Shown here: positions 3,339-30,280 of the stretch, in pieces | Layout: each line of letters opens with the position of its first letter | How positions within the stretch are numbered: the stretch's first letter is position 1 | Source: Bryobacterales bacterium | Lineage (GTDB): Bacteria; Acidobacteriota; Terriglobia; Bryobacterales; Bryobacteraceae | NCBI GenBank assembly: GCA_947467185.1 | Contig: CANIHR010000018.1 | Span: forward strand, 1 to 33,410 | DNA: 33,410 bases | Direction of reading: 5' to 3' | The notes under the pieces: model-generated | The model's input: the letters and a program-made list of their open reading frames with translations, nothing else | Database searches by the model: none | What the model was told of the DNA's origin: nothing | Program-made: the position numbers and the translations under genes

Positions 3339-3343
3339 ATTTG

Positions 3344-3373: not shown

Positions 3374-3379
3374 TTTTTC

Positions 3380-4753: not shown

Positions 4754-4767
4754 GCGGGATACCCTTT

Positions 4768-4808: not shown

Positions 4809-4841
4809 GATATCAAAGGGGTGAGCGGGAGGGCGATCTTC

Positions 4842-4847: not shown

Positions 4848-4852
4848 CGTGG

Positions 4853-6537: not shown

Positions 6538-6598
6538 GACGAAGTCTCCAGTGGGATAAGGCCCGGGAGTCGGCAGCGGAGGCAACGTCCGGAAGTCC

Positions 6599-7231
6599 TC
6601 AGATTAGCAGGCGACGCCGGGACACGAGGAGCAGGAGGATTGCCAGGCCGAGGGTTCCGGTGGCGGCAGAGGAGGGTTCGGGGGTTCCGATCTGAATGGT
6701 GTCGAGGATGGCATTACCTCCTCCGGAACCGGCTGTACTGAAGAGGATTTCATCAAAGCCTGACAGACCGGTGAAACCGAAAAAGTGGCCTGTGAAGTTT
6801 GTCGAAAAGGAGAAGCTATCAATGTCGTTGCCGCCGAGCCGCGCGGTGATGGTGGTGACGTCGCCGACATTGGTGACCAGGCCGAAAGCGACTTCGGTTT
6901 GCGGCGTGGAGAAATAGATGGAATACGGATTGTAGATATCGAGATTGGCATCGAAGTTTGCCGCGCCGGGGGCGGCGATGGACAAACCGAAGGTGTAGTC
7001 GTTATTGAAGTACAGGTTGCTGAAGGTAAGGCCCTGTGCAACAAATTGATTTGTCAGGGGAGTATCCGGGGCCAGCGAGACCTCCGCGAAGGTGACAGTG
7101 AAGGCAGGATTGGCCAGACCGGTATTACTGTCGATCAGCCTCCCGGCGGTGAGGCCAGGGGCGATGGCTGCTGCGAGCAGCAACAGAGTGGTGTGGCGCT
7201 TGAGGAGGTATCCCCCGAGAATAAGTCGCAT
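6599..7231 (-). CDS. PEP-CTERM sorting-domain surface protein
   Basis: 210 residues from ATG 7231. An alternative ATG at 7285 would add 18 residues before the signal peptide and has no ribosome-binding site. The N-terminal basic stretch GGYLLKRH is followed by hydrophobic TTLLLLAAAIAPGLTAG, a signal peptide. The C-terminus is a textbook PEP-CTERM tag: PEPSS, a hydrophobic stretch GTLGLAILLLLV and a terminal SRRRLLI. Such proteins are processed by an exosortase and released or attached at the surface, often with exopolysaccharide. The middle is a beta-rich domain (FGFTGLSGFDEILFSTAG is typical of this class) without a catalytic signature. No exosortase is in the window, so it must be encoded elsewhere. 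Divergent from the 7320 gene with only 88 bp between starts. Confidence 0.88.
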   Translation of the reverse strand: MRLILGGYLLKRHTTLLLLAAAIAPGLTAGRLIDSNTGLANPAFTVTFAEVSLAPDTPLTNQFVAQGLTFSNLYFNNDYTFGLSIAAPGAANFDANLDIYNPYSIYFSTPQTEVAFGLVTNVGDVTTITARLGGNDIDSFSFSTNFTGHFFGFTGLSGFDEILFSTAGSGGGNAILDTIQIGTPEPSSAATGTLGLAILLLLVSRRRLLI

Positions 7232-8339: not shown

Positions 8340-8340
8340 C

Positions 8341-9765
8341 TCAGGCGAGAACCTCTTTAATCACGTTGCCGCCAAAGTCAGTTAGTTTTTCGTTGCGGCC
8401 GTTGTGGAGGAACCAGAGGCGGTTTTGGTCCATGCCTAAGAGGTGGAGGATGGTGGCGTGGAAGTCGCGCATGGGATAGCGGGCTCCTTCGCCTTTTAAG
8501 CCGAGTTCGTCGGTCTGGCCCACTACAGTACCAGGCTTCACACCCGCACCGGCCATCCACATGGTGAAGCCGTGGGGATTGTGGTCGCGACCGTTGCCGC
8601 CCTGTGACATGGGGAGGCGTCCGAATTCGCTGCCCCAGATGACGAGGGTTGAATCGAGGAGGCCTCGTTGCTTCAGGTCGGCAAGGAGACCGGCGACGGG
8701 TTGGTCGGTCATGCCGCACATCTTTTCGTGGTTCTCGACGAGGTTAGAGTGGGCGTCCCACTGGACGGAGACGGGACCTCCACCGGAATAGAGCTGCACA
8801 AAGCGTGTGCCGCGTTCAACCAGGCGGCGGGCGAGAAGACAGCGGGTGCCGAATTCATTGGTCCGCTTCTGGTCGATGCCGTAAAGCGCTTTAGTGGCTT
8901 CGGTTTCTTTGGACAAGTCCACTGCTTCGGGCGCATGGCTCTGCATGCGGAAGGCCAGTTCGTAGGAACTGATGCGGGCGGCCATCTCGGTGTCGGTGTC
9001 GAGCGTGTCGAGTTCGTTCATGCTCTGCAGGAAATCGAGGGTACGGCGCTGGCGCTGCGGGGTGACACCTTTGGGCGGATTGAGATTGAGGATCGGGCTG
9101 GCCCCGGGCCGGAACACGGTTCCCTGGTAGACGGCGGGGAGGAAGCCCGCGCCCCAGCAGGGCGTGCCCCCTTCAGGCGTGCCTTCCGGCTGGGGCATGA
9201 CGACGTAGGCCGGAAGATTATCGCTCTCGCTGCCGAGCCCATAGGTGATCCACGAACCCATAGACGGGTAGCCCATCAGAATGCGACCGGTGTTGACCTG
9301 GTACATGGCGGGGGCATGGACGGTGCTGTCGGTGTAGAACGAGCGGACAAAGCAGAGGTCGTCGACGTGTTTGGCGATATGGGGGAAGAGGGTGGAAACG
9401 TCCATGCCGCTCTGGCCGTGCTTCGCGAACTTCCAGGGGGAGGCGAGGAGAGGGGTGTCGCCTTTGGTGAACTGGCTGACGATAGTGCCGTAGCTGGGCG
9501 GGAGAGGCTGGCCGTTGTATTTCGCGAGGGCTGGTTTGGGGTCGAAGGTGTCGATGTGGCTGGGGCCACCGACCATGAACAGGAAAATGACGGATTTGGC
9601 TTTGGCCGGGAAGTGCGAGGGTTTGGCGGCGAGGGGATTGACGCGTGCGGCGGCGTGCATTGAATCGGGGAGCAGCGAGGCGAGGGCGATGGAGCCGAAC
9701 CCGTGGGCGGCTCGGGCGAGAACATCGCGGCGGGTGACGGCCTTACCGAAATGGTTAGGGGACAT
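8341..9765 (-). CDS. DUF1501 domain-containing protein (Tat-exported)
   Basis: 474 residues from ATG 9765, whose first 11 nt overlap the end of the DUF1553 gene. The N-terminus carries a twin-arginine signal (TRRDVL with RR at 12-13, then [11 protein letters not shown]), so export is in folded form. Family motifs follow: [18 protein letters not shown] at about 61-78, [12 protein letters not shown] near 141-152, [11 protein letters not shown] at 375-385, [21 protein letters not shown] at 392-412 and [16 protein letters not shown] at 431-446. DUF1501 proteins belong to the alkaline phosphatase/sulfatase superfamily by fold; the conserved Asp and His residues fit metal binding, but no activity is established here. 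In Planctomycetes, Verrucomicrobia and Solibacter-like bacteria they are regularly paired with a DUF1549/DUF1553 protein, as here. Length is normal for the family. Confidence 0.94.
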
Positions 9766-11908
9766 AAACGAACTCGTTTCTGTTGAGGAGGGCAAGGGAC
9801 ATTTCCTGCAGGGTGCCGCCGTCTTTGAGGAATTTCAGCGCCAGGTTTAGTTCTTTGGGTGAAGCGGAGCGGGAGAGGGTTCGGTTCCAGGCTGTCTGGA
9901 CGCGGCAGGTCTGGTCGCCCACTTTGCATTGGGCGTCGAGAAGACTGGCGAACGCGGTGGACTGTTCCTGCATGAAGTCACTGTTAAAGAGCGACAAGGC
10001 CTGGAGGGCGTGGGTACTGACGGGGCGGACCGGGCAGGAGGTGATGGCGTCGGGCTGGTCGAAGGCGGAGAAGAGCGGGAGGCGGACGCCGCGTTTGTTG
10101 AGAAGGTAGATGCCGCGGCGGTTCTGCACAGATTTATCGGGGCTGACGGGCCAAAGGCCATCGCGTTCGTATTCGGTGAAGATGAGGTCGTAGACTTCCG
10201 GTTCGATGGGGATGCGGACGGGGCGTCCGCCAAGCTGTGGGTTCAGGGTTCCGGCGGCGCTGAGAACGGAGTCGCGGAGGGTTTCGGCGTCGAGGCGTTT
10301 GCGGTTCATGCGCCACAGGAGGCGATTTTCGGGGTCGGCCTTTTCTCCGGCCGGGTTGGGCGTGGCGGACTGGCGGTAGGTGGCGGAGAGCAGGATCTGG
10401 CGGTCGAGGGACTTGATATCCCAGCCGCTATCCATGAAGGAGACAGCGAGGAAGTCCAGCAAGGCCTGGTTGGAGGGGTGGCCGCCCATCACGCCGAAGT
10501 CATTGGGCGTTTTGACGAGGCCGACACCCATGCGGAGTTGCCACATGCGGTTGACCATGACACGGGCGGTCAGGGGATTGTCTTTGGAGACCAGCCAGTC
10601 GACGAAGGCAGTGCGGCGTCCAGTATCGGCGGTTGGGATTTTGGCGTTCGCACGGACGATGCGAGGAGCGGCAGGGTCCACCGATTCGAGGGGATCTTTG
10701 GGATCACCCATGCGGAGGATGTGGGCCTGCGGGGCGGGTTCTCCGGCGTTGACATACGCATAGGCGGTGGCGAGGGGGTCCGGGGCGGTGTCTTCGAGTT
10801 GGTGCAGGCGGACGCGGAGATCGGCGCGGGAAGCGAGGTCTTCGGGGGACATGGCGGCGACGATGAGGTCCCAGGTGGGTTCGATCTGGCTTTTGGCGTC
10901 GGCGGCGAGAGTCTTCTGTTTGGGGGTACGTTTGTCTTTGGGGGTGAGCCAGGCTTCTCTCATTTCGGGCTCAAGTTTGGCGAGGCCTTCCTGTTCGAGT
11001 TTCACCTTGTACGGGTCGGCGAGACTTTTGAGGGCATCCTGGATGGGCTTCAGGCGCGACTGGTATGCCTGATCGGCGGCCTGCCATTCCGCCTTTTCGC
11101 TGGGCTGAGCAATTTCGACATCTTTGCCTTTGGCGGCCCCGAAGACGGCCTGGAGACGGTAGAAATCTGCCTGGAGGATAGGGTCGAACTTGTGATTGTG
11201 GCAGCGGGCGCAGTTGACGGTCAGGCCGAGGAAGGTCTGCCCGACGTTGGTGGCGATTTCGGTGAGGACTTCCTGACGGCTGACGTCGGGGTCGATGTTG
11301 CCGGAGACGAGGTGTTCGGAACCCGCACGGAGGTAGCCGGTGGCGATGAGGGCTTCGGGTGAAGCAGGGGAGATTTCGTCGCCCGCGAGTTGTTCGCGGA
11401 TGAAACGATCGTAGGGCTTGTTGGTGTTGAAGGCGTTGATGACGTAGTCGCGGTAGCGCCAGGAGTGCGTCCGCTCCTTGTCAAGCTCGAAACCGTTGGT
11501 GTCGGCGTAACGGACGATATCGAGCCACTTGAGGGCCCAGCGTTCGCCATAGGCTGGGGAGGCCATCAGGCGATCGACCAGCTTTTCGTAAGCGTTGGGG
11601 GAGCGGTCGTTCAGAAAGTTGGTGACTTCCGCGGGGGTTGGGGGAAGTCCTGTGATATCGAGGGTGGCGCGGCGAATGAGTTGTGCGCGGCTCAGGGGTG
11701 CGGAGGGCTGGAGGTTTTTCGCTTTCAGCGCGCTGCGGATAAAGGTATCGATTGAGGTGGGGGTTGCCGGACGTAATGGGGGTTGAAAAGCCCAATAGCC
11801 GGCGCGTGTTCCGAGGAAACTAAGTTCTTTTGCCGGGTCCGTCGAATCGGTGGCCAGAGCAGCCGATGAGGATGCGAGAAGCAGAAGCAACAATACGCGC
11901 TGAAGCAC
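9755..11908 (-). CDS. DUF1549 and DUF1553 domain-containing exported protein
   Basis: 717 residues from GTG 11908. Signal peptide [22 protein letters not shown]1549 spans about 52-255 with [39 protein letters not shown] and a haem-type motif CARCH at 233-237 in [15 protein letters not shown]1553 spans about 430-690, with [41 protein letters not shown] and [19 protein letters not shown]. The N-terminal cytochrome-like PSCyt1 domain found in many relatives is absent, which explains the shorter length. It is the first gene of a two-gene operon: its TAA lies inside the start of the DUF1501 gene, so the two are translationally coupled. The biochemical role is not established; the families are thought to act outside the cytoplasm. 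No Shine-Dalgarno; TAAACT lies 6 nt before the GTG. Confidence 0.94.
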
Positions 11909-11920: not shown

Positions 11921-12275
11921 CGACGAACCGGATGGAGCGCGGAAGTACCATGCGGGAGTCCTGTAACCTGACTTCACCCGAATCTGACGGGAATGAGCGA
12001 TTCCGTGTAGTAGATTTAGATGATGCCCATAGTGACGACGTGTGAAAATTCACTAGCGAAAACGGTGCTGTCGGTCCGAAGATCCGGGCCGGGGTGCCGG
12101 GCAACATTTCGATGCCGACCGCCACTATCCGCCGTCTGATGAGTTTCGCACCGACATTCCGGGGCCGTTATGCTCCGCTGCTCCTCGTAATCCGGTTGCT
12201 CACCGGAACGTTGCTTTTCGCCTCCACACAACTTCTGTTCGACTCTTGCTCAACCAGCTGTGCCGCCCACAGCTC

Positions 12276-12280
12276 AGGGG
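12276..12280 (+). promoter_or_regulatory. Ribosome-binding site that fixes the start of the giant gene
   Basis: AGGGG lies 4 nt before ATG 12285. The open frame extends 39 nt further to a TTG at 12246, but that reading puts non-signal sequence (LNQLCRPQLRG) ahead of a clear signal peptide, so ATG 12285 is chosen. Confidence 0.7.
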
Positions 12281-12284
12281 AACT

Positions 12285-15200
12285 ATGATCCACCGTTTCT
12301 TCCGTCTGAATCCGTTTTTGAAGGCTATTGCCGGAAACCGTCTTTTCACAGTGCTTGCAGCACTGAGTCTGGGGATGGCTGCGATGGCGCAGGCCCAGGT
12401 CACGCTGTTGCCTGCCAGTATCCCTGGTGGGACGGTCGGGTTCCCGTATTCGACACAACTGGTGGCCAGTGGTGGAACAGGTACAGGGGTGGTGTTCACC
12501 CTTGTTAGCGGAACGCTGCCCTCGGGCGTCACGCTGAATTCCAGCACGGGTTTGATCAGCGGCACGCCGACGGCTGCCGGAACATTTTCGCCGATCATTC
12601 AGGTCACGGACAGCGGGTCGAACATCGACAGTAAACCTTACAGTCTGGTGGTTCGGGCCAGCGGCATCCTGAACACCAGATGGCAGGGAACACAGGGGAC
12701 GACGCAAACGTACACCGGCGCGGCGGTGATCGGAACTGCGGGCGATACCTGGAATTCATTCTTTACCGGGACGGCTTCCAATCAGCCACTGGTGGACAAT
12801 GCCGGACAGTCACTACCGGTTTCGGTTTCATGGAACAGTGTGACGGCGTGGCATTCTTTGAGCCGGAATGGATTTTGTACGCCAACGCCGACAGGGTTCT
12901 GTCCGCTGATGAATGGCTACATCGCCCAGAACGGCGGAACCGTTGCGAATGTCAACTTCTCGGGCCTGCCTGCGAACACATCGTGGGACATGCTGCTGTA
13001 CAACCAGATCGATTCGGGCGGATTGCGCCGGATCTCGGTCACGATCAATGGCACCACGACGGCATTCACCACGACGGACGTGGCCGGAACGGACTCCACC
13101 TTTATTCAGGGGAAGAACTACCTGGTGGTGACGGCCAACACCGACAACAGCGGGAATTTCAATATCGCCTATCGCGGCATTGGTGCGGACAACGAAGCCG
13201 ATATCAATGGCATTCAGTTGCGGCCGCATGTGAGCGGGGCAAGTATCAACCAGCTGACGCTGACGAATCCCGCATTGGGTGTGGCGTACAACGCGGCACT
13301 AACGGCTACGGGCGGAACCGGTACGGGTAAGGTGTGGACCATATCGGCAGGAAGTTTACCCACGGGACTGACGCTGAATTCGTCGACGGGAGCGATTTCG
13401 GGGACTCCGACCGCAGCCGGAACATTCATTTTCACAGTCCAGATGGTTGACTCCGGGGCGAATACAGCGATACAAGCATACTCCGTGACGGTGGGCTCCA
13501 TCCTGATCACAAGATCAACTTTGCCGTCGGGCCTGGTAGGAACCGCTTATAGCCAGACGATGACGTCGTCGGGCGGATCGGGCGGTAATGTCTGGTCAGT
13601 GAGCAGCGGGACGCTGCCAACGGGCCTCAGCCTGAATTCTTCGACCGGCGCGATTACGGGCACGCCGACGGTCGCGGGCACGAGCAATCTAATATTCCAG
13701 GTGACGGACAGCAGCAGCGCGACGGCTACCCAGGCCATCACGCTGGTAGTGCAGCAGAATACCACTACCTCACTGACGTCAAATCTGGCCAGTCCGTCCG
13801 TCCTGGGCGGGGCGTTGTCGCTGACAGCCGCGGTTGTACCTTCCTCGACGGGCACGGTGATCTTTTACGACGGCAGCGTCATTCTTGGAATCAAGACCCT
13901 TTCGAGCGGCACCGCGACCCTGTCGTATCCGCTGTTACCGGTCGGCACTCACAAGCTGAAAGTTGTTTACACGGGAGCGGCGCTGGCGCTGCCCAGCCAG
14001 TCGGCGGTGCGCACACAGGTAGTGAATTCCCGCGCACAGAGTGGATTTGTCGGGGCGGTGTCGTCCGCTACAGGTGCCAACCCGTGGAGCCCGGCGGTGG
14101 GCGACTTCAATAATGACGGCAGGCCGGATCTGGTGGTGCCGAACTATGGGTCCACACCAGGGTTTGTCGGTGGGGGCACGACGGTCAGCATCTTCCTGGG
14201 GACAGCGAATCCCGCGGCGCCGTTCTCGGCCGCAACAACAGTGTCGACCGTAACCGGGCCCATTAATGTTGCCGTAGGTGATTTCAATGAAGACGGCAAT
14301 GCCGATATTGCTGTAGCCGGCTACTCCAGCGCGTCGGTTGGCATCCTGCTCGGCAATGGCAGTGGCGGGTTTACGGCGTCGAGCTTCACGGCCGGCGTGG
14401 GGACAAGCCCAACGGCTTTTGCGTTAGCCGATTTCAATGGTGACGGTCACATCGATATGGCTGTTGCGAATAACGGCTCCGGGAATATGGGCGTCCTGTT
14501 CGGAAATGGCGCGGGAGTATTTTCCCCCTCGGCCACTTACACTACAGGGCCGAATCCGGCCGAGGTTCTGACCACCGATCTGAATTCGGACGGCTTCACG
14601 GATCTGATCCTGACGAACAATAACAACCAGATCAGTGTCCTGCTCGGCCAGGCCAGCGGTCTGTTTGGCGCGGTCACCACCTATGCCACGGGCGGCACTG
14701 GCACCAACTCGATCGCCCTGGCGGACTTCAATGGGGACGGTTTCCTGGATATCGCTGCAAGTCACTCCAGTTCGAATAATGTCGGGATTCTGCTGGGAAC
14801 AGGCTCGGGGACCTTTGGGACGGCCACCCTGGTCGCCGGGAACGGCACCACATCGTCGCTGAAGACGGGCGATTTCAACGGCGACGGAAAAGCAGACGTC
14901 GCGGTGACCAACTACACGAACAGCAATGTCTACATCCTGCCGGGCAATGGCAACGGCACGTTCGGGACCGGAATCAACTACAACGCACCTTCGGGAGCGG
15001 GATCATTGTATTCGGTTGTGGCCGATCTCAATGGCGACGGCGTTTCCGACCTGGTGATGGCCAATAACACGATCAGCACCATCAGCACGCTGATCGGGAT
15101 AGGGACCACGACGACGACGCTGACGAGTTCGGTGAATCCGACGAATTTCGGCCAGAGCACGACGCTGACGGCGACCGTTTCTCCGAGTACCGCTACCGGC

Positions 15201-18200
15201 AGCGTGACATTCCTGGATGGCGGGTCGTCGATTGGAACCTCCACATTGTCCACTGGCATCGCCACTTTAAGCGTCTCGAATCTGGGATTCGGGCCGCATA
15301 CGCTCACAGCGGTGTATGCGGGCGATACCACCAACGCAACAAGCACTTCGTCCACCGTGACACAAACGGTTCGCCAGCCGGTTGTTGTATCGACAAGCAC
15401 CCTGCCCGCAGGGCAAAACGGGTCGGCTTATAGCCAGACGCTAGCTGCGACCGGTGGTGCCGGACCCTACACGTGGTCAGTGACGACTGGTGCCTTGCCA
15501 ACGGGGGTGACGCTGTCAACGGGTGGCGTCCTGAGCGGGACGCCCACAGTTACTGGAACGTTCAACTTCACGGTGCTGGCCACGGATTCGTTCAGCGCCA
15601 CCGGGTCACAGGCTCTCTCGTTATTGATAAACCCACCGCCACCGCCTTCAACGCTGACCTCGCTGTCGATAGGCGGCTGTTCTTCCGGTTGCACGGCAAC
15701 GCTGAGCCAGTCGGTCTCTCTCCAGGCAACGGTCACTTCTGCCGGCAACAGTGTTGGGTCGGTCGGTTCGGTGACATTCTTCAGCGGTACGACAATTCTT
15801 GGGGTGGCACCTGTTACCGGAGGCGTTGCGACCCTGGCGACCAAAACAATACCGTCAGGCTCGAACTCGTTAAAGGCAATTTACCTCGCGAACGCCAGTT
15901 ACGGGCTGAGTGCCTCCTCCGCCACCTCACTCGCGGTTACTCCCCGAGCCGGAACTGGCTTCGCGGCAAAGAGCAGCTACGGGAGCGGCGGGACCAACCC
16001 CTACGCGGTGGCACTGGGTGATGTTTCTGGTGATGGTATTCCCGATTTGGTCGTGTCGAATTCCGGAGGGAGTCCCGGCCTGATCGGAGTCCTGGTTGGC
16101 AATGGAAGCGGGGGCTTTACCGCGGCGCAAACATTCGCTGTCGGGTACATAACCAAAGGGGTTGTGATTGGAGACTTCAACAGCGACGGAAAAGCTGACA
16201 TCGCAGCCGTAAACAATGATGATGACACCATCAGTATCCTGCTGAACACCAGCCCCAACACGTCGACCCTGAGTTTTGCGAGCGCGGTTAACTACGCCGC
16301 AGGTGTGCTTCCCCAATCCATGGTCGTTGCCGACTTTAACGGCGATGGCATCGCGGATCTTGCGATTACGAACTTCGTTAGCCCGGTGACGGTGAGGGTT
16401 TGGTTTGGGGTTGGGAATGGCACGTTCCCTGCTTCGCCGTCGCTCATCCTGACGGGCCCCGCCGGTAATGCAACCGGCGGCCTTGGAGTGGGGGACTTTG
16501 ACGGGAACGGAACGACCGATATTGCGGTCGGTACGGGCGGCACCCTGAGCGTCTTCCTGAATTCCGGTGGCGGCAGTTTCGGCGCCGCGAACAACTTCAG
16601 TTTTGGTGTTATGACGAACCCCGTGTCATTTACCATTGGGGACTTCAACGCCGACGGCAAGACGGATGTCGCGCTCGCGAATTATCAACCCAGCCCCAGC
16701 GGGACAGCAGTAGTCCTGCTGAACAACACCGTGGCAAGTCTGAGTTTCACGGCCGCCGGAACATACCAACTCGGGGCGAATCCCTCGAGTATCGCCAGTG
16801 GCGATTTCAACGGAGACGGAAACCCCGATCTGGCCGCCGCAAATCTGGTTGACGGAAACGTCAATATCCTGCGGGGGAGTGCCGCCGGAAGCTACACAGC
16901 CCAGTCTATTGTCGCTGTCGGCAGTTTCCCGCAAGGAATCCTGGCGGGAGATGTGAATGGCGATGGAATCGTGGATATTGTGACCGCCGACTCCGGGGCA
17001 GGCGTCAGTGTGCTCGTGGGAATTGGCAGCACCACAACTTCGCTAACGAGTTCGGTGAATCCGACAAATTTTGGGCAGAGCACCACGCTGACGGCGACGG
17101 TTTCTCCGAGCACCGCCAGTGGCACGGTGACGTTCAAAGACGGGGGATCGAACATCGGGACGGTCACGATGACCGGTGGGGTTGCGACTTTGAGTGTGTC
17201 CAACCTGCTCTCGGGTGCCCGTTCTCTGACTGCGGTTTACGGGGGCGACGCCACGAATACGACCAGTACGTCGAATACGGTTTCGCAGGTCGTTCGCGCG
17301 CCGGTGACGATCTCGACTCTTACGGTGCCGTCGGGACGAGTTGGGACCGCTTACAGCCAGACGCTGGCGGCAACGGGCGGTACGAGTTCGTACACCTGGG
17401 CCGTTTCGACGGGAACTCTGCCGGGTGGCGTTACGCTTTCGTCGGGCGGTGTTCTGAGCGGAACGCCCGCGGCAGCCGGAACATTCAGCTTCACAGTGCA
17501 GGCGACCGATGGCGCGAGCGTAAGTGCGACGCAGGCATTGTCGCTGGTGGTGGTTGCGGCAAATTCCGTGTTCAACGGCCAGCAGGTCCAGGTGACCTGG
17601 ATGTATCCGGATCAGTCCACCATTTATCAGGCACCGCTGACGGCCACCGTTGGGGCCGGGGTTGAGTTCCCAGGCTACGCCTCGGGCAATGATGCGTTTA
17701 ATATCGATTTCTCCGATACCAGTATTCTGATCAGCAGCAACCGAACGGGCTCGAATTTTGATCCCGCCCAGCCGTTCAATGGTCTGGTGATCACCAACCC
17801 TGGCGGCCTGCCCCCGTTTGTTAATGCGACTATCGCCTCGACCAACTGGACGGACATCACGTCAGCGACATTCGACAGTTCGCGTGTCTCCTTCGATGCC
17901 ACACATATTTATCTGAATTTCAAAGGGATGCTGAATCAGGTCGGGATGAGTGTCACGATTCAGGTGAATGGTCTCAGCCTGACGCCATCGACATTACCGG
18001 GCAGCGCGGTTGGCTTCCCGTATTCCACGCAGTTATCGACGCTGGGTGGCACGGGCACAGGACGTGTTTTCAGCCTGACGAGCGGCACGTTGCCGACTGG
18101 TCTGACACTGAACACGTCCACGGGAGTCATCAGCGGTGTCCCGACCGTGGCTGGCACTTTCACGCCGACTATCCAGGTGGTAGACAGTGGCAGCAACACT

Positions 18201-21200
18201 ACCAGCCTGACCTACAGTGTGGTGATTCGCGCCAACGGACTGATCAGCACCAGATGGCACGGACAGCCAAACGCCGTTTACACGGGCCCTGGTCAGATCG
18301 GATACTCCAGTGACGTCTGGAACCTTTACGACACTGGGTCCGGTTCGGGGCTGCTGAAAGATAATGCAGGCCAGAGCACGCCCGCCGGTATCACATGGTC
18401 GGCTGATGGCGCGGTGAACAGTCAGTTGCTCGACAGTAATAATTTCTGCTATCCCTCGCCGACTCCGTTCTGCTCGCTGCTGGCGAACTATCTGTATAAG
18501 ACCAGCGGGGCGACGGGTAACGTCACGTTTGGCGGGCTACCTGCCAGCAGCCCCTGGGACATCTATATTTATACACAGATTGAGGGTTCGACTTCCCCCC
18601 GGCAGTTAAGCGTCACGGTAAACGGAACGACTTCAGCGACAACCAGCCCCAGCGACCGGAACGACTCGACGCTGATCCTGAACAAGAACTACCTGGTAGT
18701 AAATACAACCACGACGGCGGGCGGCCAGATCTCGGTCGACTTCCATGGCACTGCGGGCGACCTGGAAGGCGACATTAACGGCATTCAGTTGCGGCCGCAT
18801 CTGGCACCCCTGACGATCACGCAGGTTTCGCTGCTCCCACTTGTGCAGGCACATACCTACACCGTTACGCTGACAGCCACCGGGGGTACGACGACAGGGC
18901 TGACGTGGCAGGTTTCCAGCGGTTCCCTGCCCCCGGGTTTGACGCTTTCGAGCGGGGGCGCTCTGACTGGGAACCCGAGCGCTGCAGGCAATTACAGCTT
19001 TACGGTGACCGTTACGGATGACCAGGGTAATCAGGCAAGCCAGGCTCTCACGCAGTTGATTAACCCTCCGCTATCCATTACGACCTCCACCCTGCCGACA
19101 GGCGTCCTCGGTTCCCCGTACAGCCAGACACTGGCGGCGGCGGGCGGGACAGGGGGCTATGTATGGTCGATCTCGGGCGGCTCCCTCCCCGGGGGGCTGA
19201 CTCTGAATTCCGCCAGCGGCCTCATCAGCGGCACGCCCATACAGACCGGTAATCCGACTGTTTTCTTCCGGGTGACGGACAGCAGTTCGAGCTTCACCAG
19301 CGTCGGTTTGACGCTGACGGTGAATCCCGGGGTGAGCGTGACGACTTCCACGCTGCCTTCCGGTGCAATCGGAGCGCCGTACAGCCAGACCCTCGCCGCG
19401 ACCGGCGGCCTTGGCGGCTATACCTGGTCGATCACTTCCGGCACCCTGCAGACGGGCTTGACGCTCAACTCCGCAACCGGGCAGATCTCGGGGACTCCGA
19501 CCGCGGGCGGCGCGGCGACCATCACATTCCGCGCCACGGATTCAGGCAGCAATTTTGGAGCGGGAACGCTGACCCTGACGATTGCGTCAGCGACCTCGAC
19601 GGTACTGACGAAGTCATTGACCAGCCCTTCGCTGCTGGGTGTGAACCTGACTTTGACGGCGTCGGTGACACCCAACACTTCGACGGGTAAAGTGACGTTT
19701 TATGACGGCAGTTCCGTGGTGGGTATTGGGACGCTTTCGGGCGGAAGCGCGACGATCAGTGCGAAGCAACTGAAGACGGGTACTCACGCACTGCTCGCCT
19801 ACTACCAGGGCAGTGCGCTGGGGAGTCCGAGTCTTTCGACGGGTATCGTCCAGGTGGTGAACTCCGCACCGCAGAGCGGCTTTGGAACAGGTACCCAAAT
19901 GGCGACCGGCGCTGGCCCCTGGATGAGCGCTACCGCCGACTTTAATGGCGATGGCAAGACGGATTATGTGGTGGCGAACTATGGCGCCAACACGATCAGT
20001 GTCTTCCTGGGCAATGGCAACGGGACGTTCAGCTTGCCGACCACCATCACGCTCGGCACGAATCCGTTCTCGGTGACGACGGGTGATTTCAATGGCGACG
20101 GTTTTGTGGATATCGCAGCCGCCAACCTGTTCTCAGACAGCGTCAGCGTCCTGCTGGGTGATGGCGCCGGCACCTTTGCCGCAGCCGTAAATTACACTGC
20201 CGGAGTCGGCTCACACCCGGGCCAGATTATCGCGGGGGATTTCAACCGCGATGGCTTCGTGGATCTGGTGACCGTGAACTACAACTCGAACAATATCAGC
20301 GTCCTGTTTGGAACCGGGACCGGGACTTTTGGAACCGGCGTGCTGTATGCGGTGGGTAGCGGCCCGGCGTCGGTCGTGGCCGGTGACTTCAATCAGGACG
20401 GATTTCCTGATCTTGCGGTGGCGAACCAGAATACGAATGACGTGAGTGTCCTGCTGGGTCAGAATGGCGGTACTTTTGGCACCGCGACGAATTATGTATC
20501 CGGGGGAGTAACACTGCAGGGAATTTCCGCGGCGGATTTCAACGGCGACGGACGCCTCGATCTGGCAGTCGCGGCCACCGATACCGGCAGTGTCACGATT
20601 CTGTTGGGCACGGGCACGGGGGCGTTTGCAGCGCCAAACTCAGGGGGCGCGGTCAATCAGGCATATTTTGCGGCCCCCGGTGATTTCAACGGTGACGGCA
20701 TTCCCGACCTGGTGGTAGCCGGTGATTCCGGTGGATACGCCGTGGTACTGACGGGCAACGGCACGGGGACCTTTGCGGCTCCGGCGCTTTACAGTTCCGG
20801 GGGCAGTGGTGCTCGTTTTGTAACGGTCGCCGAACTGAACGGCGATTCTGTTTCGGACATTATCGTTTCGAACTATTGGAGCGCTCAGGCGAGCATCCTG
20901 CTGGGCGTTGGCGGGACTACAACGACGCTGACGTCATCCGTGAATCCATCTACTGTGGGCCAGACGACCGCTCTGACCGCCACTGTTTCCGCCCCGGTTT
21001 CGACCGGGACGGTCGCGTTCCAGGACGGGGGCGTCACGATCGGAACAGCGACGCCAAACAGCGGCATCGCGATCCTGAATGCGCAGTTCGCAACCGCCGG
21101 GACGCATTCTCTGACCGCCATTTATGGCGGCGACGCGACCCATGCGCCCAGCACTTCATCGGCGGTGTCTCAGACGGTATCGAAGGGTACCAGCACCATT

Positions 21201-24200
21201 TCTCTAAGTGCGAATCCCAATCCGAGCACCTGGGGGAACAATGTCACCTTCACGGCGACGGTTGTTCCCTCGACCGCAACGGGCACTGTGACCTTCCTGC
21301 TGAACGGTCTCACGATGGGAACCGGAGTTGCCAGCGGGGGTGTGGCTACTTTCAGCACCACGACGCTGGCGGCCGGGTCCTATTCGATTACCGCCACGTA
21401 CCCCGGCGACACAAATTACCTTTCGAGCAGTTCCAACACAGTCACGCAGACAGTGAACGCCCTGACGACGACTACCGGGCTGACCTCGTCGCCGAATCCC
21501 TCGGTGGTGGGCGGCAATGTCACGCTCACGGCAACTGTCATCCCGAGTTCGGCGACCGGTTCGGTGAACTTCAAAGACGGGGCCACGATCATTGGCACCG
21601 GTACGCTATCCAGCGGCAGCGCTTCTCTGCTCTACGGTGGCTTCACGGCGGCCAACCACTCGCTGACCGCCGTCTATGCGGGCGACGGTAACAACGCAAC
21701 CAGCACCTCGGCCGCGATAACGCAGGTGGTAAACGCGGCGCTTGTGATTACGACTTCAACCCTGCCGGACGCAATCCAGGGTACGCCCTACAGCCAGACG
21801 CTGACTGCCACGGGCGGAACAGGTGCGAAAACCTGGGCACTGATCAGCGGGACTCTGCCCGCCGGGCTGACGCTGAACGGTGCCACGGGAATCATCTCGG
21901 GTACACCCACAACGCCGGATGGCCAGGTTATCCAGGTCCAGGTGACGGATGCAGCCAGCAACACGCAGACCGCGAATCTGGTAATCATCGTGAACCCGGC
22001 CCTGCAACTCATCAGCGGCACGCTCTTCAACGGTACGGTCGCCTTCCCGTACAGCCAGTCGCTGTTTGCGACAGGTGGGACGGGTACGGGTTACACCTAT
22101 GCGGTCTCGACCGGCACTCTTCCCGCCGGTCTGGCGCTCAATGCCTCAACGGGGGCGATTTCCGGCAGTCCGACGGTTGCCGGGACATACAACTTTACGA
22201 TACGCGTGACGGACTCTTCGGCAGCCACGGCAACACAGACTTACAGCATTGCCATTGATGGCTATGGTGTCCTGAACGTACAGTTCCAGCCAGTCGACTC
22301 CAGTCTATTCTTCGGCCCTGCCTTGATCGGTAACGACATTGACCTGTGGAACAGCTTCGGCGGGCCTGCAGGCAACCGTCCTGCCCTTTATGACGACGCC
22401 GGGAACATCACCGCGGCAGGCGTCACCTACAACGTCCCTGGCGGAAGCACCGTAACGAACGTGACCTCGGGTGGCGGCGGTTTCTGTACTCCCGTGACGG
22501 CCTTCTGTAACCTGATGAAAACGTACCTGGCTGCACCTCCGGGGGCGACGGGCACGATAAACCTGACCGGCTTCACACCCGGTTCCGCGTGGGATATCTA
22601 CGTCTACACGCAGGGCGATACGAGTGGCCGCAGCCTGTCGGTTACGGCCACTGGGGCCAGCCCGGTCAACTCTTCAGCCGCCAGTGCCTCGGACTCCACG
22701 TTTACTGCGAACAAGAACTATATTCTGATTCCTGCCATCGCCAATGGATCGGGCAATATTGATTTGACCTTTACCGGTGGCGGGGGTGGCGAAGGCGACC
22801 TGAACGGTCTGCAGCTGACGCCGCATGTGACCCCAATCAGTATCACTTCGGGAGCACTCCCGGCGGGTGTTTCCGGTGTTGGCTACAGCCAGACTCTTTC
22901 AGTATCGGGCGGGACGGGCCTCCTCTATAACTGGGCCGTCACGACCGGAACGCTTCCCACGGGCCTCGCCCTGAATGCTTCGACCGGCGCTATCACGGGG
23001 ATTCCGACAGTTGCGGGATCGTTCCCCTTTACCGTCACCGTGGATGACGCTCTGAACTATGTCGCCACGAAGAACTTCACCATCGTGGTGGGTCCGGCGC
23101 TTTCGATCACGTCGGTTTCACCACTTCCCACGGGATTCCTGGGCGTACCTTATTCCCAGACTCTGACCGCATCAGGCGGGACGGGTGGTTATGTGTGGGC
23201 GATCCAGTCCGGACTTTTCCAGAGCGGCCTGATTCTGGACAGTTCGGGGGTGATTTCGGGAACTCCGACCAGTCTCGGGACGGCTAATGTCGTGGTACAG
23301 GTTTTCGATTCCAGCAATGCGGCCGCCAGCAAAACACTCCAACTGACTGTGTCGGCGGCGCTCAGCGTCATGACTTCAACACTGGCTGGGGGCGAAATTG
23401 GTGTGCCATACAGCCAGACCCTTTCGGCTACGGGAGGGGCTCCCGCTTATACATGGAGCATCGTCTCCGGGACGCTACAGGCCGGCCTGACGCTGAACCC
23501 CTCAACGGGCGCTATCACGGGCACGCCAACGGTTGGCGGGACAAACAATCTGGTGTTCCGCGCGACAGATTCGGCCAGCAATACGGCCGTCTCCACTACG
23601 GTGGCACTGACCGTGGCGCCGGCGGTCACAATCACCACTTCCACGCTCCCGGCAGGTGTGGTCGGAATCACCTATAGCCAGCAACTGGCTTCAACCGGTG
23701 GCACGGGCCCGTATACGTGGGCCATCACCTCGGGCGGTATTCCCGGCCTGACACTTTTCAGTAACGGCATCCTCTCCGGCCCCCCGCAGACGGCGGGCAC
23801 ATTCACAGTCAATGTACGCGTGACAGATGGGCTGAACGCGCAGGCGAACCAGACGCTGAGTGTTACGATCAACGGCGCGCTGCAGATCACAACCAGTGTT
23901 CTGCCGGGCGGTACTGTGGGTATTCCTTACTCGCAACAACTGGTCGCAGGTGGTGGCAGTGGTTCGGGCCGGGTGTTTAGTATTTCTGCCGGCACCATGC
24001 CATTGGGCCTGGTCCTCAACCAGGCGACGGGCGTCCTGAGCGGAAACCCGGTTACCGCGGGTGCCGCTTCCTTTACGGTCCAGGTAACGGATTCAACTTC
24101 CGCAACAGCATCAACACCGTATTCGTTTACGCTCAACCCATTTGGCAGCGTCAATGTGCAGTTCCAGGGTCCATCGGCTTCCTTCTACCAGGGGCCCGCG

Positions 24201-27200
24201 GTGATTGGAGCGGCAAACGACAACTGGAACCAGGTCCTGACGCCGACGGGGACGGCCACACTCAATGAGAGCCATGGCCAGCAGAGCGGGGTCACCTTTG
24301 ACTGGACCGGCGATTCGCTGGTGAACGGCCAGTTGCAGAGCGGATTCTGCTCTGTGGCAGGACCCTATTGCCCACTGATGAACGGCTACCTGGCGAAAAC
24401 CGCCGGGCAACCATCGTTGTTCACATTCGGCGGTCTCAATCCCGGCAGCAACTGGGATATCTATGTCTATACCCAGCCGAGCACGACGGCCACGCGGTCG
24501 ATTTCCGGCTTCCTCAACAGCCAGGCATTTGGGCCGTCCTCGACCAGCAGCCACACGGATTCCTCGTTCCTCCTGAACAAGAACTACGTGGTACTGAACA
24601 CCAACGCAAACGCCCAGGGCCAATTATTGTTGAGCCTGAGCGGGGCCACGGGCGATCTGGAAGCGGACATTAACGGTATCCAGATCCGGCCTCATCAGGC
24701 ACCGCTGGTGATCTCGCAGTCGACCGCACCACTGGGGGTACAGGGAGTGCCGTATAACCTGGCGCTTTCCGCTACCGGCGGAACGGGAACGGGTCAGATC
24801 TGGAGCATCATTTCCGGCCAGATGCCTGCCGGATTCTCCATCGGTCAGGCCAACGGTATTGTGGCGGGCGTCGCATCGGCCTCCGGTACCTCGAACTTCA
24901 CGGTTCAGGTGGTGGATTCGGGCGGAAACACCGGGACTCAGGCGTACTCGCTGGTGATCAATCCACCGATCGCCATCAGCACTTCCTCGTTGCCCAACGG
25001 TGTCCCGACCGTCGCGTACAGCCAGACGCTGGCCGCAACGGGTGGATTCGGAGGGTATACGTGGTCGATTCAGTCGGGCACCTTGCCGGCTGGCATCACT
25101 CTCAATTCGGGTAGCGGTTTACTTTCCGGGACACCCTCGGTGCCCGGTTCCTCCACTGTGATCTTTAAGGTGCTCGACAGCGGTTCGCAGTTCATCACCA
25201 AATCTCTCACCATCGTGGTGGCTTCGAACCTGACGATCACAACGTCGACGTTACCGACGGGGACGCAGGGCGTCCTTTACAACCAGACCATCGTCGCGAC
25301 AGGCGGTGTCGGTGCGCTGACATACAACGTTCAGGCAGGCACCTTACCCGCCGGGCTCACCCTGACTACCAGCGGTGTGCTGAGTGGCACGCCAACCGCG
25401 GCAGGAACCTCCAGCTTTACGGTTAGGGTAATCGATACGGCGACGGGGGTAGCGACTGCTGCCTACTCCCTGCTGATTAACCCGCCAATTGTCATCAACA
25501 CCTCGGTCCTTCCGACCGCGACTCAGGGCACAGCATACACGCAGACCCTGAGCGCTGTGGGTGGCAGCGGGACGATTACCTGGTCGTTTGCCCCGACTTC
25601 GACGGCGGCACAAGCCGGGTTCTCCCTCAGTTCCAGCGGCGTTCTGACCGGTACGCCCAACACCTTCGGCACGCTGTCGGTGGTGGTGACGGTCCAGGAT
25701 CAGGCGAGCAATGTCTCCACGGCGACCATCCCGCTCCCGATTGCGCGGCAGGGGGCAGCGACCAGAGACTTCATCATTTCCGACTCCTCATCCGGCAAGC
25801 TGTTCCGGATGGCTTCAGATGGCAGTTCACTGCTGCAGATCTGCGGCCCGCCGAATTGCCGCACCGGTAGCATCACGGCGGATGCACAGGGCAACGTCTA
25901 CTCGTACGACGGCTCCGGCGTCTACAAGATCACGCCCGGCGGGACGGTCACGACTATCCTGACCCGGTCCGGTGGCGTGGGTGGGGCTGCAGTTGATGCG
26001 AGCGGCAATGTAATCTTCGTCGACAACAGCAGCGACACTGTCTACCGCGTCAGCCCGACCGGAGTTCTAACAACGGTAGGCCCATTGCCGATCCAATCCC
26101 CAGGCGGTCTGCAGGATACCGCGATTGCGCTGGATGCGAACGGAGACTACATCGTCGCTTCCGATGACTCCAACGCAGTGAAGCTATACCGCTTCACCCC
26201 GGCCGGCGTTAGTACCACGCTGGCAACCATCCCCAGTTCCGGGGTAACCGGCGTGGCGGTAACCAGTACGGGAACTATCGTGTTTACCGACTACCGAAAC
26301 CGGCGTCTGGTCACGTTTGATCCCGCAGGTTCTCCCAACAACGCGGCGGTGACGAATCTGGATATCGGCGATGCGGTAATTAACGGTTTGGCAATTGACC
26401 CGGCCAACGGACACTACCTGGTGCCCGGCCGGCAAACCGCTACGGTGAGCCGCGTGACGCCATCGGGAGCGATCACGCTACTGCGCGCGGGTTCTCCAAT
26501 TACCGGACCGAGAAGTATTGTCGCGGTGCCCACACTGGGCGGACCGACAATCACCACCTCCTCGCTGCCGAACGGCCTGGCGGGCCAGAATTATGGCTCT
26601 GTCCAGTTCACAGCTGCCAATGGTTCGGGTAACTACACGTGGGCCGCCACCGGCTTCCCGTCCGGGATGGCGTTCTCGACGGCGGGTGTCCTGAGTGGAG
26701 GTCCGACCGGTCCGGGGACGTTCTCCATCAACGTGACTGTAACGGACGTCCTTACCAGCCTGACCGGCTCAGCCACGCTTTCTCTGCGCGTGAATTCACC
26801 GGTACCGCCGCTGTTCATCAGCGGTTCGTCTTCCCAGGCCAATGTGGCGGTCGGCGGCGCAGTTTCGGCGACGTTCAGCGCGTCGGGTGGCGCACCGCCC
26901 TACACCTTCATCGGCAATGGTTTGCCACAGGGTGTGAGCGTTTCTTCTGGTGGCATACTGAGTGGCGCTCCGACACAACCGGGCAATTTCTCTGCCAGTG
27001 TTGGCGTATCCGATACCAGTGGCAGGTCTGCTTCGACCAGCTTCACGATCAACGTTCTGGGTATCGTGGCGCCCTCGCTTCCCAACGGCACGGTGGGGAC
27101 ACCCTATGCGGTAAGCTTCGCCGCCATCGCCGGGTTGCCGCCTTATACCTTTACGGGTTCCGGACTTCCCCCGGGGCTGGGCATTTCCGGTGCGGGAACG

Positions 27201-30200
27201 TTGTCCGGAACCCCCACGGCGGGCGGTACCTTCACAGTCGGCATCACGGTGACCGATAGTGGCGGGGCTCGCATTTCCACCGGCGGCACGGTCACCATCC
27301 TTGTCCCCGGGGCGCCCGTTTCTATTCCCAGCGGCAATCTGCCGGATGGCACGGTGAACGTCCAGTACACGGCGTCGCTCAGTGCGGTCGGCGGTAAGAG
27401 CCCTTACACGTGGTCCATCCTCTCGGGCGGCCTGCCGGAAGGCCTGTCGTTCGGTTCGAACGGCGCTGTCACCGGCATTCCTTCCGCTCCGGGTATTGCG
27501 TCATTCGCTGTCCTCGTGACGGATGCGGCGGGCGGCACGGCCAGCACCGCGGTCGGATTCTCCGTGAAACCAGCTCCGGTGGTTATCACCTCCAAATCTG
27601 CTCTGGCTTCCGGCATGGTGGGCGTCGAGTATCCCGGCGTTCAACTGGCGGCCAGCGGCGGCGTGAGTCCCTATAAGTGGTCTGTGTCGAGCGGCTCGCT
27701 GCCAGCAGGCATGTCTCTGGATGCGGGTGGCACCATCTCCGGGATTCCGAGCGCAGCAGGCGACTTCACGTTCGGCGTCACCGTAGCAGATGCCGCCGGG
27801 ACGACCGGAACGTCGAGCTTCTCGATTACGGTTCGGCCGATCTCCGCCGACCTGATCATTTCGACCGGAACGGCAGCCTTCGAACTCACGACAGGCGCGG
27901 TCTCGATTCCGTCCGGTCAGACGATTGGCGTCCAGTCAACCTCGGTGGTGCAGCAGATCTCGTACGGCGTCACTGTGACGCCGGCGGTCGGGTGGCTGGC
28001 CATCAACAACGGCACGAAGACCCCGGACAGCATCAGCATCGCGCTTTCCAGCGGGGCGCTGTCGCTGCCCGCCGGACAGTACGCGACCACGGTGAAGATC
28101 ACCTGTTCGACCGGGAGTTGCGCGGGTTCGGCTCAGTCGGTGGCGGTATCGCTGTCGATCACTTCGCCCCCGCCAAAGCTGAAGGCTGTGACTGACGTTC
28201 TGGCGTTTACCACGACGTCGCAGAGCCTGGGTCCGATTTCCGAGAACATCGCGCTCCAGAACGCCGGTGGCGGCTCGCTGGGTGTGGCTTCGGTCTCCTG
28301 CGGCGCACCCTGGTGCGTCGCGGGCGTTCCGCCTTCCACCATCCCAGGCGGCAGTACGGTCAATGTTCCCGTGACGGTAACGCCGGCCTCGGTCAGCCCG
28401 GGCTTCTACCGGACGACGGTGGAAATCACTACTTCGGCGGGCAAGGCCTCAGTGCCGGTCACGCTGTTCATCGCGCAGAATTCCAGCATGACGCTGTCGC
28501 CCTCCGGCGGTCAGTTCAGCATGCCGCAGGGTGGCGCGCCGGGTAATCCTTCCGGTTCCTTCCTGGTGAGCGTGAACAGCACGCCGTCCGTTATCTTCAC
28601 CGCCGCGCAGTTGCCTGGTGCGGACTGGCTGAAGCTGAACACGACCTCGATAAGCGCCTCTTCGGCGCAGCCGGGAACGATCAGCTACTCGATTGACACC
28701 AATGCGGTGGCAGCACTCAAGACGGGGGCGTATTACGGCCAGATCAGCGTGGGAGGTCCCGGCATTGTAAATGCGCCGCAGACCTATCAGGTGATTCTGA
28801 ACGTGACGCCGCCGACGGATGTGGCGCGACCCGATCCGCAACCCGCCGGTCTGTTGTTCCTGACCACGGTGGGCGGCACGAATCCGCCGCCTCAGGTAGT
28901 GAACGTCTTCACCAGTTCCACGAAGGCGGTTCAGTTCCAGGCGTCGGCAACTTCCGAGGGGGGGTGGCTGACCGTGACTCCGACGATTGGCACCACTTCC
29001 CAGCCGGCTCCTGCGGCGACGAACGCCAGCGTGAATATCGCGGGTCTGAAGACGGGTGTTTACACCGGTCTGATCAGCTACGCGTTCGCCGGCAATGCGG
29101 TTCGCTCTGTGAACGTAACGCTGGTGGTAGCACCGGTGGGAGGCACGGCGGCGACGCTGACGTCTTCCGCGGTGACGCCTTCAGTGAACGCGCCGCTGCT
29201 GCCCCGGGATACCTGCTCTGCCACTACGCTGGCAGCAGTGCAAACGGGAATTGTGACCAACTTCTCGGCTCCGGCCGCCTGGCCGACTCCGCTCTCCATC
29301 AAGCTGGTGGATGATTGTGGCGGGACAGTGACGGGAGCCCAGATCGTGACCACGTTCAGTAACGGGGATCCACCCCTGCCGCTGCCGATGATCGACTCGA
29401 AGAACGGCCTGTACGCGGGAACCTGGACGCCCCGCAAGCAGTCAGGATCGCTGACGATCAACGCGAAGATTTCGGCCAAGGGCTACAAGGACCTGACGAC
29501 GCAGCTGGTCGGCGCAGTCACGCCTAATGCCGCTCCGCTGCTGACGCCGCACGGTACCGTCCACGCGTTCTCTCCGCTGGTGGGCGCTCCGCTGGCACCG
29601 GGTAATATCGTGGCGGTTTACGGCACAAACCTTGCCATTCTGACAGGGGTGCCGAACGCGGTACCCCTGCCGACGGCGGTGAACGGGACGCAGGTCCTGA
29701 TCGGCGGCATCAAAGCGCCGTTGTACTTCACCAGCCCGGGTCAGGTAAACGCCCAAATTCCGTACGAACTGGAGCCGAACAAGCAGTATCAGGTGATTGT
29801 CTCGGCGAACGGCGCGCTCTCAACGCCGGATGCAATCCAGCTGGCTACGGTGGTTCCGGGTCTGGCGGCTTACGCTGACGGCACGGTGATCGCGCAGCAC
29901 GCGGATGGCACGCTGATCAATGCGAAGTCCCCGGCCAAGGCGGGAGAGACGGCGATTGCTTACCTCTCCGGTCTGGGTGCGACGGACAACGCCCCGACAA
30001 GCGGTGGCGCCTCACCGGGTGATGTCCTGGCCCGGCCGAACGCGATACCGACGCTCACCATCGGCGGGAAGGACGCGAAGATTGCCTTCGTGGGCCTGAC
30101 TCCGGGGCTGGTGGGTCTCTACCAGATGAACTTCGAGGTTCCGGCCGGAGTCCCGGCGGGCAATCCGACGATCACAGTCACGCAGGACGGGGCTTCGAGC

Positions 30201-30238: not shown

Positions 30239-30280
30239 GGTGGTCTGGGCGTCAACGAAGAGTTTGACGCTCAGGCCACC
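30239..30280. terminator. 17-bp hairpin between the convergent giant gene and histidine kinase gene
   Basis: GGTGGTCTGGGCGTCAA (30239-30255) pairs with TTGACGCTCAGGCCACC (30264-30280) over 17 positions, 15 Watson-Crick and two G-T, with an 8-nt loop. It starts 8 nt after the giant gene's stop and its right arm contains the kinase stop codon (30271-30273). No T-run follows on either strand, so termination efficiency is uncertain, but position and symmetry suit a shared bidirectional terminator. Confidence 0.65.

Follow-up and report, generated by a model that had tools for sequence, protein, structure and literature searches.

A four-copy module with a predicted malectin/CBM57-like fold in a giant acidobacterial secreted protein

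The window analysed here, a contig stretch of 33,410 nucleotides, carries an open frame of 5,994 aa (12246-30230) that encodes a giant secreted protein. We count this protein from an ATG at 12285, although the frame itself begins at 12246 or upstream; both the ATG and the hydrophobic, signal-peptide-like N-terminal stretch (MIHRFF...AMAQA) were judged by eye. The features of the protein are as follows.

12285..30227, + strand: giant secreted protein, 5,981 aa counted from the ATG at 12285
12399..12653, + strand: He_PIG Ig-like domain before copy 1, 12-nt gap (He_PIG profile, PF05345)
12666..13229, + strand: module copy 1, 188 aa; nearest relative L021 (genome G007), 82% identical
13239..13493, + strand: He_PIG domain after copy 1, 9-nt gap (He_PIG profile)
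14103..15041, + strand: FG-GAP repeat set 1, seven DxNGDG-type loops, first to last motif (motif scan)
16020..16967, + strand: FG-GAP repeat set 2, five loops matched (motif scan)
17973..18227, + strand: He_PIG domain before copy 2, 12-nt gap (He_PIG profile)
18240..18800, + strand: module copy 2, 187 aa; nearest relative L033 (G007), 63% identical
18810..19061, + strand: He_PIG domain after copy 2, 9-nt gap (He_PIG profile)
19938..20699, + strand: FG-GAP repeat set 3, six loops matched (motif scan)
22002..22256, + strand: He_PIG domain before copy 3, 12-nt gap (He_PIG profile)
22269..22826, + strand: module copy 3, 186 aa; nearest relative L042 (G007), 50% identical
22836..23090, + strand: He_PIG domain after copy 3, 9-nt gap (He_PIG profile)
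23880..24134, + strand: He_PIG domain before copy 4, 12-nt gap (He_PIG profile)
24147..24695, + strand: module copy 4, 183 aa; nearest relative L038 (G007), 51% identical
24705..24959, + strand: He_PIG domain after copy 4, 9-nt gap (He_PIG profile)
26178..26552, + strand: SGL/NHL-like beta-propeller stretch (PF08450)
29565..30218, + strand: C-terminal domain TIGR03437 Soli_cterm, 186.5 bits (cut-off 29.05)

Matches to FG-GAP_3/FG-GAP families in the profile scan also support the three FG-GAP sets, and PF08450 reached 27.2 bits for the whole piece scanned (cut-off 26.3), its single stretches each lying below the cut-off. The protein ends in the TIGR03437 domain that marks Soli_cterm proteins; an NCBIfam scan of the final 276 aa (E up to 10) listed this family alone, with no PEP-CTERM there. 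The NCBIfam scan of a 2,980-aa half of the protein had missed TIGR03437, which the short C-terminal piece revealed; negatives on such long repetitive pieces are thus unsafe, and the modules were scanned singly.

The four copies of a ~186-residue module that had been proposed from the letters of the DNA were recovered at the same positions, all in frame 1 of the open frame. They are 36-47% identical to each other with 35 invariant columns, and for each of the six pairs the local alignment score (296-418) far exceeds the maximum of 77 in 200 shuffles. When the 5.78-Mb assembly (96% complete) was searched with a profile of the four copies, the hits were these copies themselves (E 1.9e-83 to 1.8e-91), as they must be by construction, and a fifth was not seen at E up to 0.001. 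The repeat is real, and its motifs vary around a consensus: IGxxxDxWN and the FC-x5/6-[FY]C pair occur in all four copies and LMxxY in three (copy 2 has LLxxY), while WDIYVYTQ is exact in two (WDMLLYNQ in copy 1, WDIYIYTQ in copy 2), DSxFxxNKNYxV is exact in copy 4 and one residue off in each of the others, and D[IL]NGIQLRPH is exact in two (DLNGLQLTPH in copy 3, DINGIQIRPH in copy 4). Every copy lies between two He_PIG Ig domains, whose coordinates come from a home-made He_PIG profile seeded on the giant protein itself, with a PF05345 match also seen.

Relatives of the module were found in both Planctomycetes and Verrucomicrobia, the phyla in which the sequence-only reading had guessed at similar beta-sandwich regions, although the strongest ones outside Acidobacteriota are in Chlorobiaceae. 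A query of the four copies confirms relatives in Chlorobiaceae (E 1e-28), Verrucomicrobiota (7e-19), Planctomycetota (4e-14) and Acetobacteraceae (2e-12), these E-values being relative to candidate stretches. Within the Acidobacteriota sampled, the module is almost confined to one genus. No relatives were found in viral_contigs (one degenerate pattern only), nor by tblastn in plasmids or phage records. The proposed disulfide fared less well as a mark of the domain: the FC...[FY]C pair is present in 10 of 56 family members and restricted to the clade of giant-protein modules, and so it is not a family feature.

Many of the relatives are small proteins that end in a PEP-CTERM sorting tail. Among eight stand-alone proteins scanned, seven pass the cut-off of TIGR02595 (PEP_CTERM) and six that of PF07589; L008 passes TIGR02595 only and L019 neither. 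Most of these stand-alone proteins thereby show the C-terminal PEP motif, membrane helix and basic end of PEP-CTERM proteins, and by eye 39 of 42 short frames have PEP-CTERM-like ends. One protein, L011, shows sub-cut-off matches to several NCBIfam PEP-CTERM families, tail included (best floc_PepA, 36.2 against 80 bits). Exosortase is encoded in all 19 genomes of the acidobacterial genus, module-less ones included, so its presence says little. Two of the 17 long frames scanned join the module to an enzyme: L157 to an alginate-lyase-like domain (barely above cut-off, 23.7 against 22.2 bits) and three CBM6-type domains, and L169 to a sulfatase; the other 15 are without a carbohydrate enzyme. Many other members are passenger-type/autotransporter proteins with PATR repeats, or Ig-repeat proteins. 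The module is a real domain family that spans several phyla; it occurs in the giant protein, in small PEP-CTERM proteins, in proteins of autotransporter type and in two or more enzymes that probably act on carbohydrates.

As the sequence-only reading had also held, the module matches no named family: scans of single modules against Pfam-A and NCBIfam gave no significant match. Among 55 members, 23 families were listed at a limit of E 1 (HMMER filters drop most matches above E 0.1 despite this limit), and neither malectin (PF11721) nor PF21254 (AGA-YXIM_GBD) was among them; the list does include weak matches to GH101_dom-5 (PF21466) in four members (best E 0.0052), fn3 in 16 (best E 0.006) and Big_6 in one. 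SodCMycob and OMP_33_36 (NCBIfam, E 0.004-0.005) were hit by one copy each, far under cut-off, and we take them as chance. We rejected an assignment of the modules to Ig/fn3 domains (He_PIG, Big_3_5), as no such profile matches over the module. Among solved structures the best fn3 match covers ~35 residues around the GLxxxTxYxxYxY strand, the single-domain fn3 alignments shown are at E 1.8 or worse, and the match to 1fnh (E 6.7e-5, whole chain) arises from that ~35-residue strand motif repeated in fibronectin. Designed TIM barrels appear in the same search at E 0.001-0.01, likewise via summed repeats. Literature searches found no paper describing the domain, a weak negative, since text searches are poorly suited to a domain that has no name; the Solibacter genome paper (PMC3174227) does not contain the terms Ig-like, VCBS, FG-GAP or adhesion.

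Using a 23-sequence alignment as input, AlphaFold2 predicted copy 2 (18237-18806) as a compact beta-sandwich with pLDDT 90.1 and pTM 0.89, in line with the earlier expectation of a folded domain rather than disorder. With four sequences as input the model had been poor (pLDDT 61.2, pTM 0.64); the fold search did not use it. In the Foldseek list no entry exceeded TM 0.53 and the best E was 1.6e-4; these weak matches were of several kinds, CBM35, CBM22 and CBM61 standing next to influenza haemagglutinin, Cry1Aa and iota toxin pore entries. VIA-align, applied to the Foldseek-ranked structures (families absent there remain candidates), gave these matches: residues 719-886 of the B. uniformis beta-glucuronidase at Z 14.1 (3.1 Å over 149), 13.7 and 13.5, the C-terminal domain of the B. 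dorei beta-glucuronidase at 12.3, ANXUR2 at 12.8, YxiM at 11.8 and human malectin at 11.4 (3.2 Å over 152), where, according to a note of the structure-comparison tool, models without a clear match usually reach 7-8 at best. The module thus has the malectin-type beta-sandwich in its predicted model rather than in a solved structure, and this malectin/CBM57-like fold is predicted with confidence. A structure search of viral models lists phage tail-fibre proteins (best E 2.2e-8, TM 0.66), a similarity of fold only. The idea that the domain is new therefore holds for the sequence family, which is undescribed, but not for its kind, which is already known from malectin and CBM57.

This raises the question of whether the module is merely a divergent branch of malectin PF11721 / CBM57, to be merged there, which we regard as possible but doubtful. 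The predicted fold and the order of its elements are the same, and in hhalign a 55-row module profile matched 16 PF11721 domains from the relatives' genomes with P 2.6e-4 (the four window copies alone gave P 3.8e-4, probability 36%, 65 columns). However, the larger alignment has a probability of 42% and, although in register, covers 77 of 187 columns in the C-terminal part, less than half of the module. PF11721 is absent from the families listed for the 55 members, and malectins occur in 16 of the relatives' 61 genomes but at no place in the genome of the giant protein (E up to 0.001). As controls, the module against five PF21254-type stretches from relatives gave P 0.63 (a shallow, partial alignment) and against the He_PIG profile P 0.34 (a two-row alignment).

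Our preferred reading, which we consider fairly probable, is that the module is of the malectin/CBM57-like kind and binds glycans, and that its repetition gives avidity to a giant adhesin. The loops at one end of the sandwich would bind a polysaccharide, which could be exopolysaccharide made by the cell itself or a glycan from the environment. With four modules, each between Ig-like He_PIG domains on a secreted arm of roughly 6,000 residues, weak binding at single sites could add up until the protein adheres strongly to a surface or matrix. In the giant-protein lineage, one loop may have been stabilised later by the additional pair of cysteines. It seems unlikely that the module instead has a malectin-like fold with no sugar site and serves as a protein-protein interaction or spacer domain, as suggested for plant CrRLK1L domains. 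There is a precedent for such a role, as PMC6038381 describes ANX1, one of the closest structural matches, as having no canonical sugar-binding surface and the oligosaccharides tested as unbound by ANX1 or HERCULES1; the many PATR-repeat passenger-type or Ig-repeat members without an enzyme would also suit it, and several of the most highly conserved residues (W27, N28, N150, N180, G181 and Q183) could be structural. However, two proteins join the module to CBM6-type and alginate-lyase-like domains or to a sulfatase, and the top structural matches are beta-glucuronidase C-terminal domains described as CBM57. The near-confinement of the module to one genus of the sampled Acidobacteriota might suggest a lineage-specific repeat without family members elsewhere, but this is refuted by the relatives that the four-copy query finds in four other groups and by the confident fold.

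Taking glycan binding as the preferred reading, one might tentatively see in the module a cross-phylum, lectin-like family that specialises in holding secreted proteins in exopolysaccharide matrices, often via exosortase/PEP-CTERM; one acidobacterial genus would then have acquired it, multiplied it to four copies and stabilised it with a disulfide on a giant adhesin that is not a PEP-CTERM protein. A 2006 study reports that all bacteria with PEP-CTERM in the genomes it covered had EPS genes, and describes PEP-CTERM proteins as a highly diverse group in which homology to known proteins is scarce (PMC1569441). The predicted fold gives a testable role, glycan binding, to surface proteins of Chlorobiaceae, Verrucomicrobiota, Planctomycetota and Acidobacteriota that are now without a named domain in Pfam-A/NCBIfam except for the sorting tail, and it offers a lead on the possible binding targets of the giant protein in this uncultured acidobacterium. 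The module alignment is deep enough for a curated family.

The closest known structures are the CBM57 domains of Bacteroides beta-glucuronidases (5uj6, 6d50, 6d8g, 6ed1), whose fold matches the entire module at Z 12.3-14.1, with 148-156 aligned residues at 3.0-3.2 Å and an identity of 13-15%. The B. dorei enzyme carries a CBM57 'based on malectin', a loop of which enters the active site, and that of B. uniformis (BuGUS) also has one DUF and one CBM; from its C-terminal place, we read residues 719-886 as that CBM. These domains are attached to an enzyme, whereas the module in the giant protein is a repeat between Ig domains. Human malectin (9ikp, PF11721) is alike in fold, with its C-terminal part in register at the profile level, but carries AGGxxxxDxxGxxWxAD, LYxTxRYG and NAIEI where the module has GDxWN, LMxxYL and INGxQ. 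The malectin-like ectodomains of the plant CrRLK1L proteins ANX1, ANX2 and FER (Z 11.3-12.8) form a tandem pair in receptor kinases, unlike the module. YxiM (2o14), which by its family name we infer to represent PF21254, has a similar fold over 138 residues but no similarity at the profile level in the shallow comparison above. GH101 chains are also among the structure matches, 5a56 in the Foldseek list and EngBF (6qep), which we take to be a GH101 enzyme, at Z 8.0 in VIA-align; these, like the weak profile matches to GH101 endo-alpha-N-acetylgalactosaminidase domain 5 (PF21466), are far weaker than the malectin-type matches. Finally, most of the stand-alone members seen are PEP-CTERM proteins of the exosortase system, whereas the giant protein ends in TIGR03437 Soli_cterm instead.

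All four copies of the module, a domain of about 186 residues, lie in one open frame of 5,994 aa, and the protein likely starts at the ATG at 12285, with a stretch right after it that by eye resembles a signal peptide. The window (G000:C18:1-33410) belongs to a 5.78-Mb assembly of 496 contigs, and its features include:

2-2836, reverse strand: OMP_b-brl_4/CarboxypepD_reg outer-membrane beta-barrel protein, a neighbour of the giant gene
12246-30230, forward strand: the giant frame
12666-13229, 18240-18800, 22269-22826 and 24147-24695, forward strand: module copies 1 to 4
within the giant protein: He_PIG (PF05345), Big_3_5, FG-GAP repeats and a weak SGL stretch (Pfam domain scan)
C-terminus of the giant protein: TIGR03437 Soli_cterm (NCBIfam scan of a short C-terminal piece)
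30271-33378, reverse strand: multi-PAS histidine kinase (HisKA_2/HWE type), a neighbour of the giant gene

The copies located by the sequence-only reading are all in frame and match its coordinates exactly; its motif strings hold as a consensus but, checked copy by copy, not as invariant residues. The copies share 36-47% pairwise identity and 35 invariant columns, and score 296-418 in local alignment against each other, versus at most 77 with shuffled partners. A profile search of the whole genome (E <= 0.001) recovered the same four copies and nothing more.

Upstream of the giant gene, a DUF1501 + PSCyt2/PSD1 gene pair (8335-11731) is 80% identical in DNA to its counterpart in a sister genome (locus L005, 3077-6418), where its orientation relative to the giant gene is reversed; aligned pieces of the giant gene itself are 66-71% identical. 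In another relative (L006, Kiruna2; 104-7066 and on to 10554), the blastn alignment reaches window position 30230, the C-terminal end, although the open frame there stops at 7066, through either a break or an assembly error.

The giant protein is built as a patchwork of known extracellular domain types. A home-made profile, seeded from four of its own He_PIG domains, finds 25 He_PIG copies, and every module is flanked by He_PIG on both sides, 12 nt before and 9 nt after in 4/4 copies when the module borders of the sequence-only reading are used. Given this constant spacing, the module looks as if it had been inserted or duplicated as a cassette. A motif scan matched three groups of DxNGDG-type loops (seven, five and six), and the NCBIfam scan found no PEP-CTERM at the C-terminus. 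Since NCBIfam did not list TIGR03437 when 21288-30227 was scanned as one protein, and found it in the short piece, negatives from profile scans of long, repetitive giant proteins need caution.

Single modules had no match in Pfam-A at a limit of E 10 (HMMER filters drop most matches above 0.1) and two in NCBIfam, each in one copy and far under cut-off. No consistent known family emerged across twenty members, nor across 55, for which the commonest matches were fn3 (16/55, best E 0.006), apparently traceable to one strand motif, and GH101_dom-5 (4/55, best E 0.0052). The earlier suggestion that the module matches no named family is borne out for the versions of Pfam-A and NCBIfam that were scanned; on that basis it is an undescribed sequence family of a known fold class. 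The family is useful, testable and moderately interesting, and brings no new principle.

With the four copies as query, genome contigs yielded 16 loci, spread over Terriglobia/Acidobacteriia, Chlorobiaceae, Verrucomicrobiota, Planctomycetota and Pseudomonadota. Counting matches at E <= 0.001, with profiles that include some counted members and with seed genomes counted, 12/61 of the window's relatives match, all within its genus (12/19, versus 0/42 in other genera), G003 and G004 with E no better than about 1e-9. The corresponding counts among sampled genomes are 38/240, mostly weak, in the phylum to which the Verrucomicrobia locus L013 belongs; 20/61 in the family Chlorobiaceae; 14/199 in Planctomycetota; 5/297 in Acidobacteriota, including the window's own genome and four weak matches; and 2/100 in Acetobacteraceae. 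One Chlorobiaceae genome (G064) matches in eight stretches, some only fragmentary, and two loci (L008 and L009) each have two adjacent genes with the module. Relatives were found neither in viral contigs (a single pattern search) nor in plasmids or phages (tblastn).

In a tree of 56 sequences, whose bootstrap is not fully settled and whose deep branches are weak, the four window modules form one clade (100/100) with four modules from genome G007 and one each from genomes G015 and G016. Each window copy pairs with one G007 copy, so the duplications appear older than the divergence of these two species. Of the 56 sequences, the ten in this clade, and no others, have the FC...[FY]C pair, which makes the disulfide a derived feature of the clade; seven further sequences have two cysteines each at different positions. 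The single disulfide proposed earlier is thus plausible in the giant proteins but local to them.

Among short frames (<480 aa) with the module, 39/42 show by eye a C-terminal PEP or PES motif, then a hydrophobic segment and basic residues; many of these frames encode related Chlorobiaceae proteins and so are not independent. In a scan of eight stand-alone proteins, TIGR02595 was above cut-off in seven and PF07589 in six. Exosortase (PF09721) is present in 19/19 genomes of the window's genus, with or without the module, and in 24/37 relatives overall, the window's own genome having only a partial match. Longer carriers include two Planctomycetota members (L015 and L016) with an autotransporter beta-domain and PATR repeats, and the L013 protein with Ig and RCC1 domains. 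A probable carbohydrate-active enzyme occurs in 2/17 long frames scanned: L169 joins the module to a sulfatase (161.9 bits), and L157 has an alginate-lyase match barely above cut-off (23.7 vs 22.2 bits) together with three stretches that match both CBM6 and CBM_35_2.

Structure prediction, proposed earlier as a check, returned a confident and almost entirely beta fold for copy 2 (23 sequences, pLDDT 90.1, pTM 0.89). A second-look aligner matched this model to the B. uniformis beta-glucuronidase C-terminal domain (Z 14.1, 13.7 and 13.5), plant malectin-like ectodomains (12.8-11.3), YxiM (11.8) and human malectin (11.4), over most of the module in each case, with CBM35 modules next (about 8-9). 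The Foldseek list was weak and mixed (best E 1.6e-4), with CBM35, CBM22, CBM61 and ANXUR beside entries for influenza haemagglutinin, Cry1Aa and the iota toxin pore. Against 16 malectin domains from relatives' genomes, profile-profile alignment gave P 2.6e-4 (probability 42%) over 77 columns, in register to the last strand, and P 3.8e-4 (36%) with the window copies alone; controls gave P 0.63 (PF21254-type) and 0.34 (He_PIG), from shallow alignments of five and two sequences. These results identify a malectin-type domain family, predicted to be folded, on surface-type proteins of several phyla. Viral structure models with the fold include phage tail-fibre proteins, one of them from Vibrio phage Kuja (A0A6B9JB13, E 2.2e-8, TM 0.66), and A0A385A154 (TM 0.69); tblastn found no sequence similarity to the module in phages.

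The module would bind glycans, judging from its malectin-type fold, from the proteins in which it is fused to probable polysaccharide-active enzymes or CBM6-type domains, and from the link of PEP-CTERM systems to EPS made in PMC1569441; by extension, the four-copy giant protein would adhere multivalently. Weighing against this, PMC6038381 reports that ANX1 and HERCULES1, which have malectin-like domains, showed no binding to the sugars tested. The most conserved residues (W27, N28, L80, Y84, N150, Y151, G162, N180 and Q183 in copy 2) sit chiefly in loops or close to strand ends, which would suit a structural core as well as a site close to the N-/C-terminal loops. A structural calcium site is possible, as the same paper describes for ANX1 and other CBMs. 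Among known systems, the B. dorei GUS domain is described as a CBM57 based on malectin, with the same arrangement in B. uniformis beta-glucuronidase (BuGUS), whose C-terminal domain, probably this CBM, shares the module's predicted fold at the best Z.
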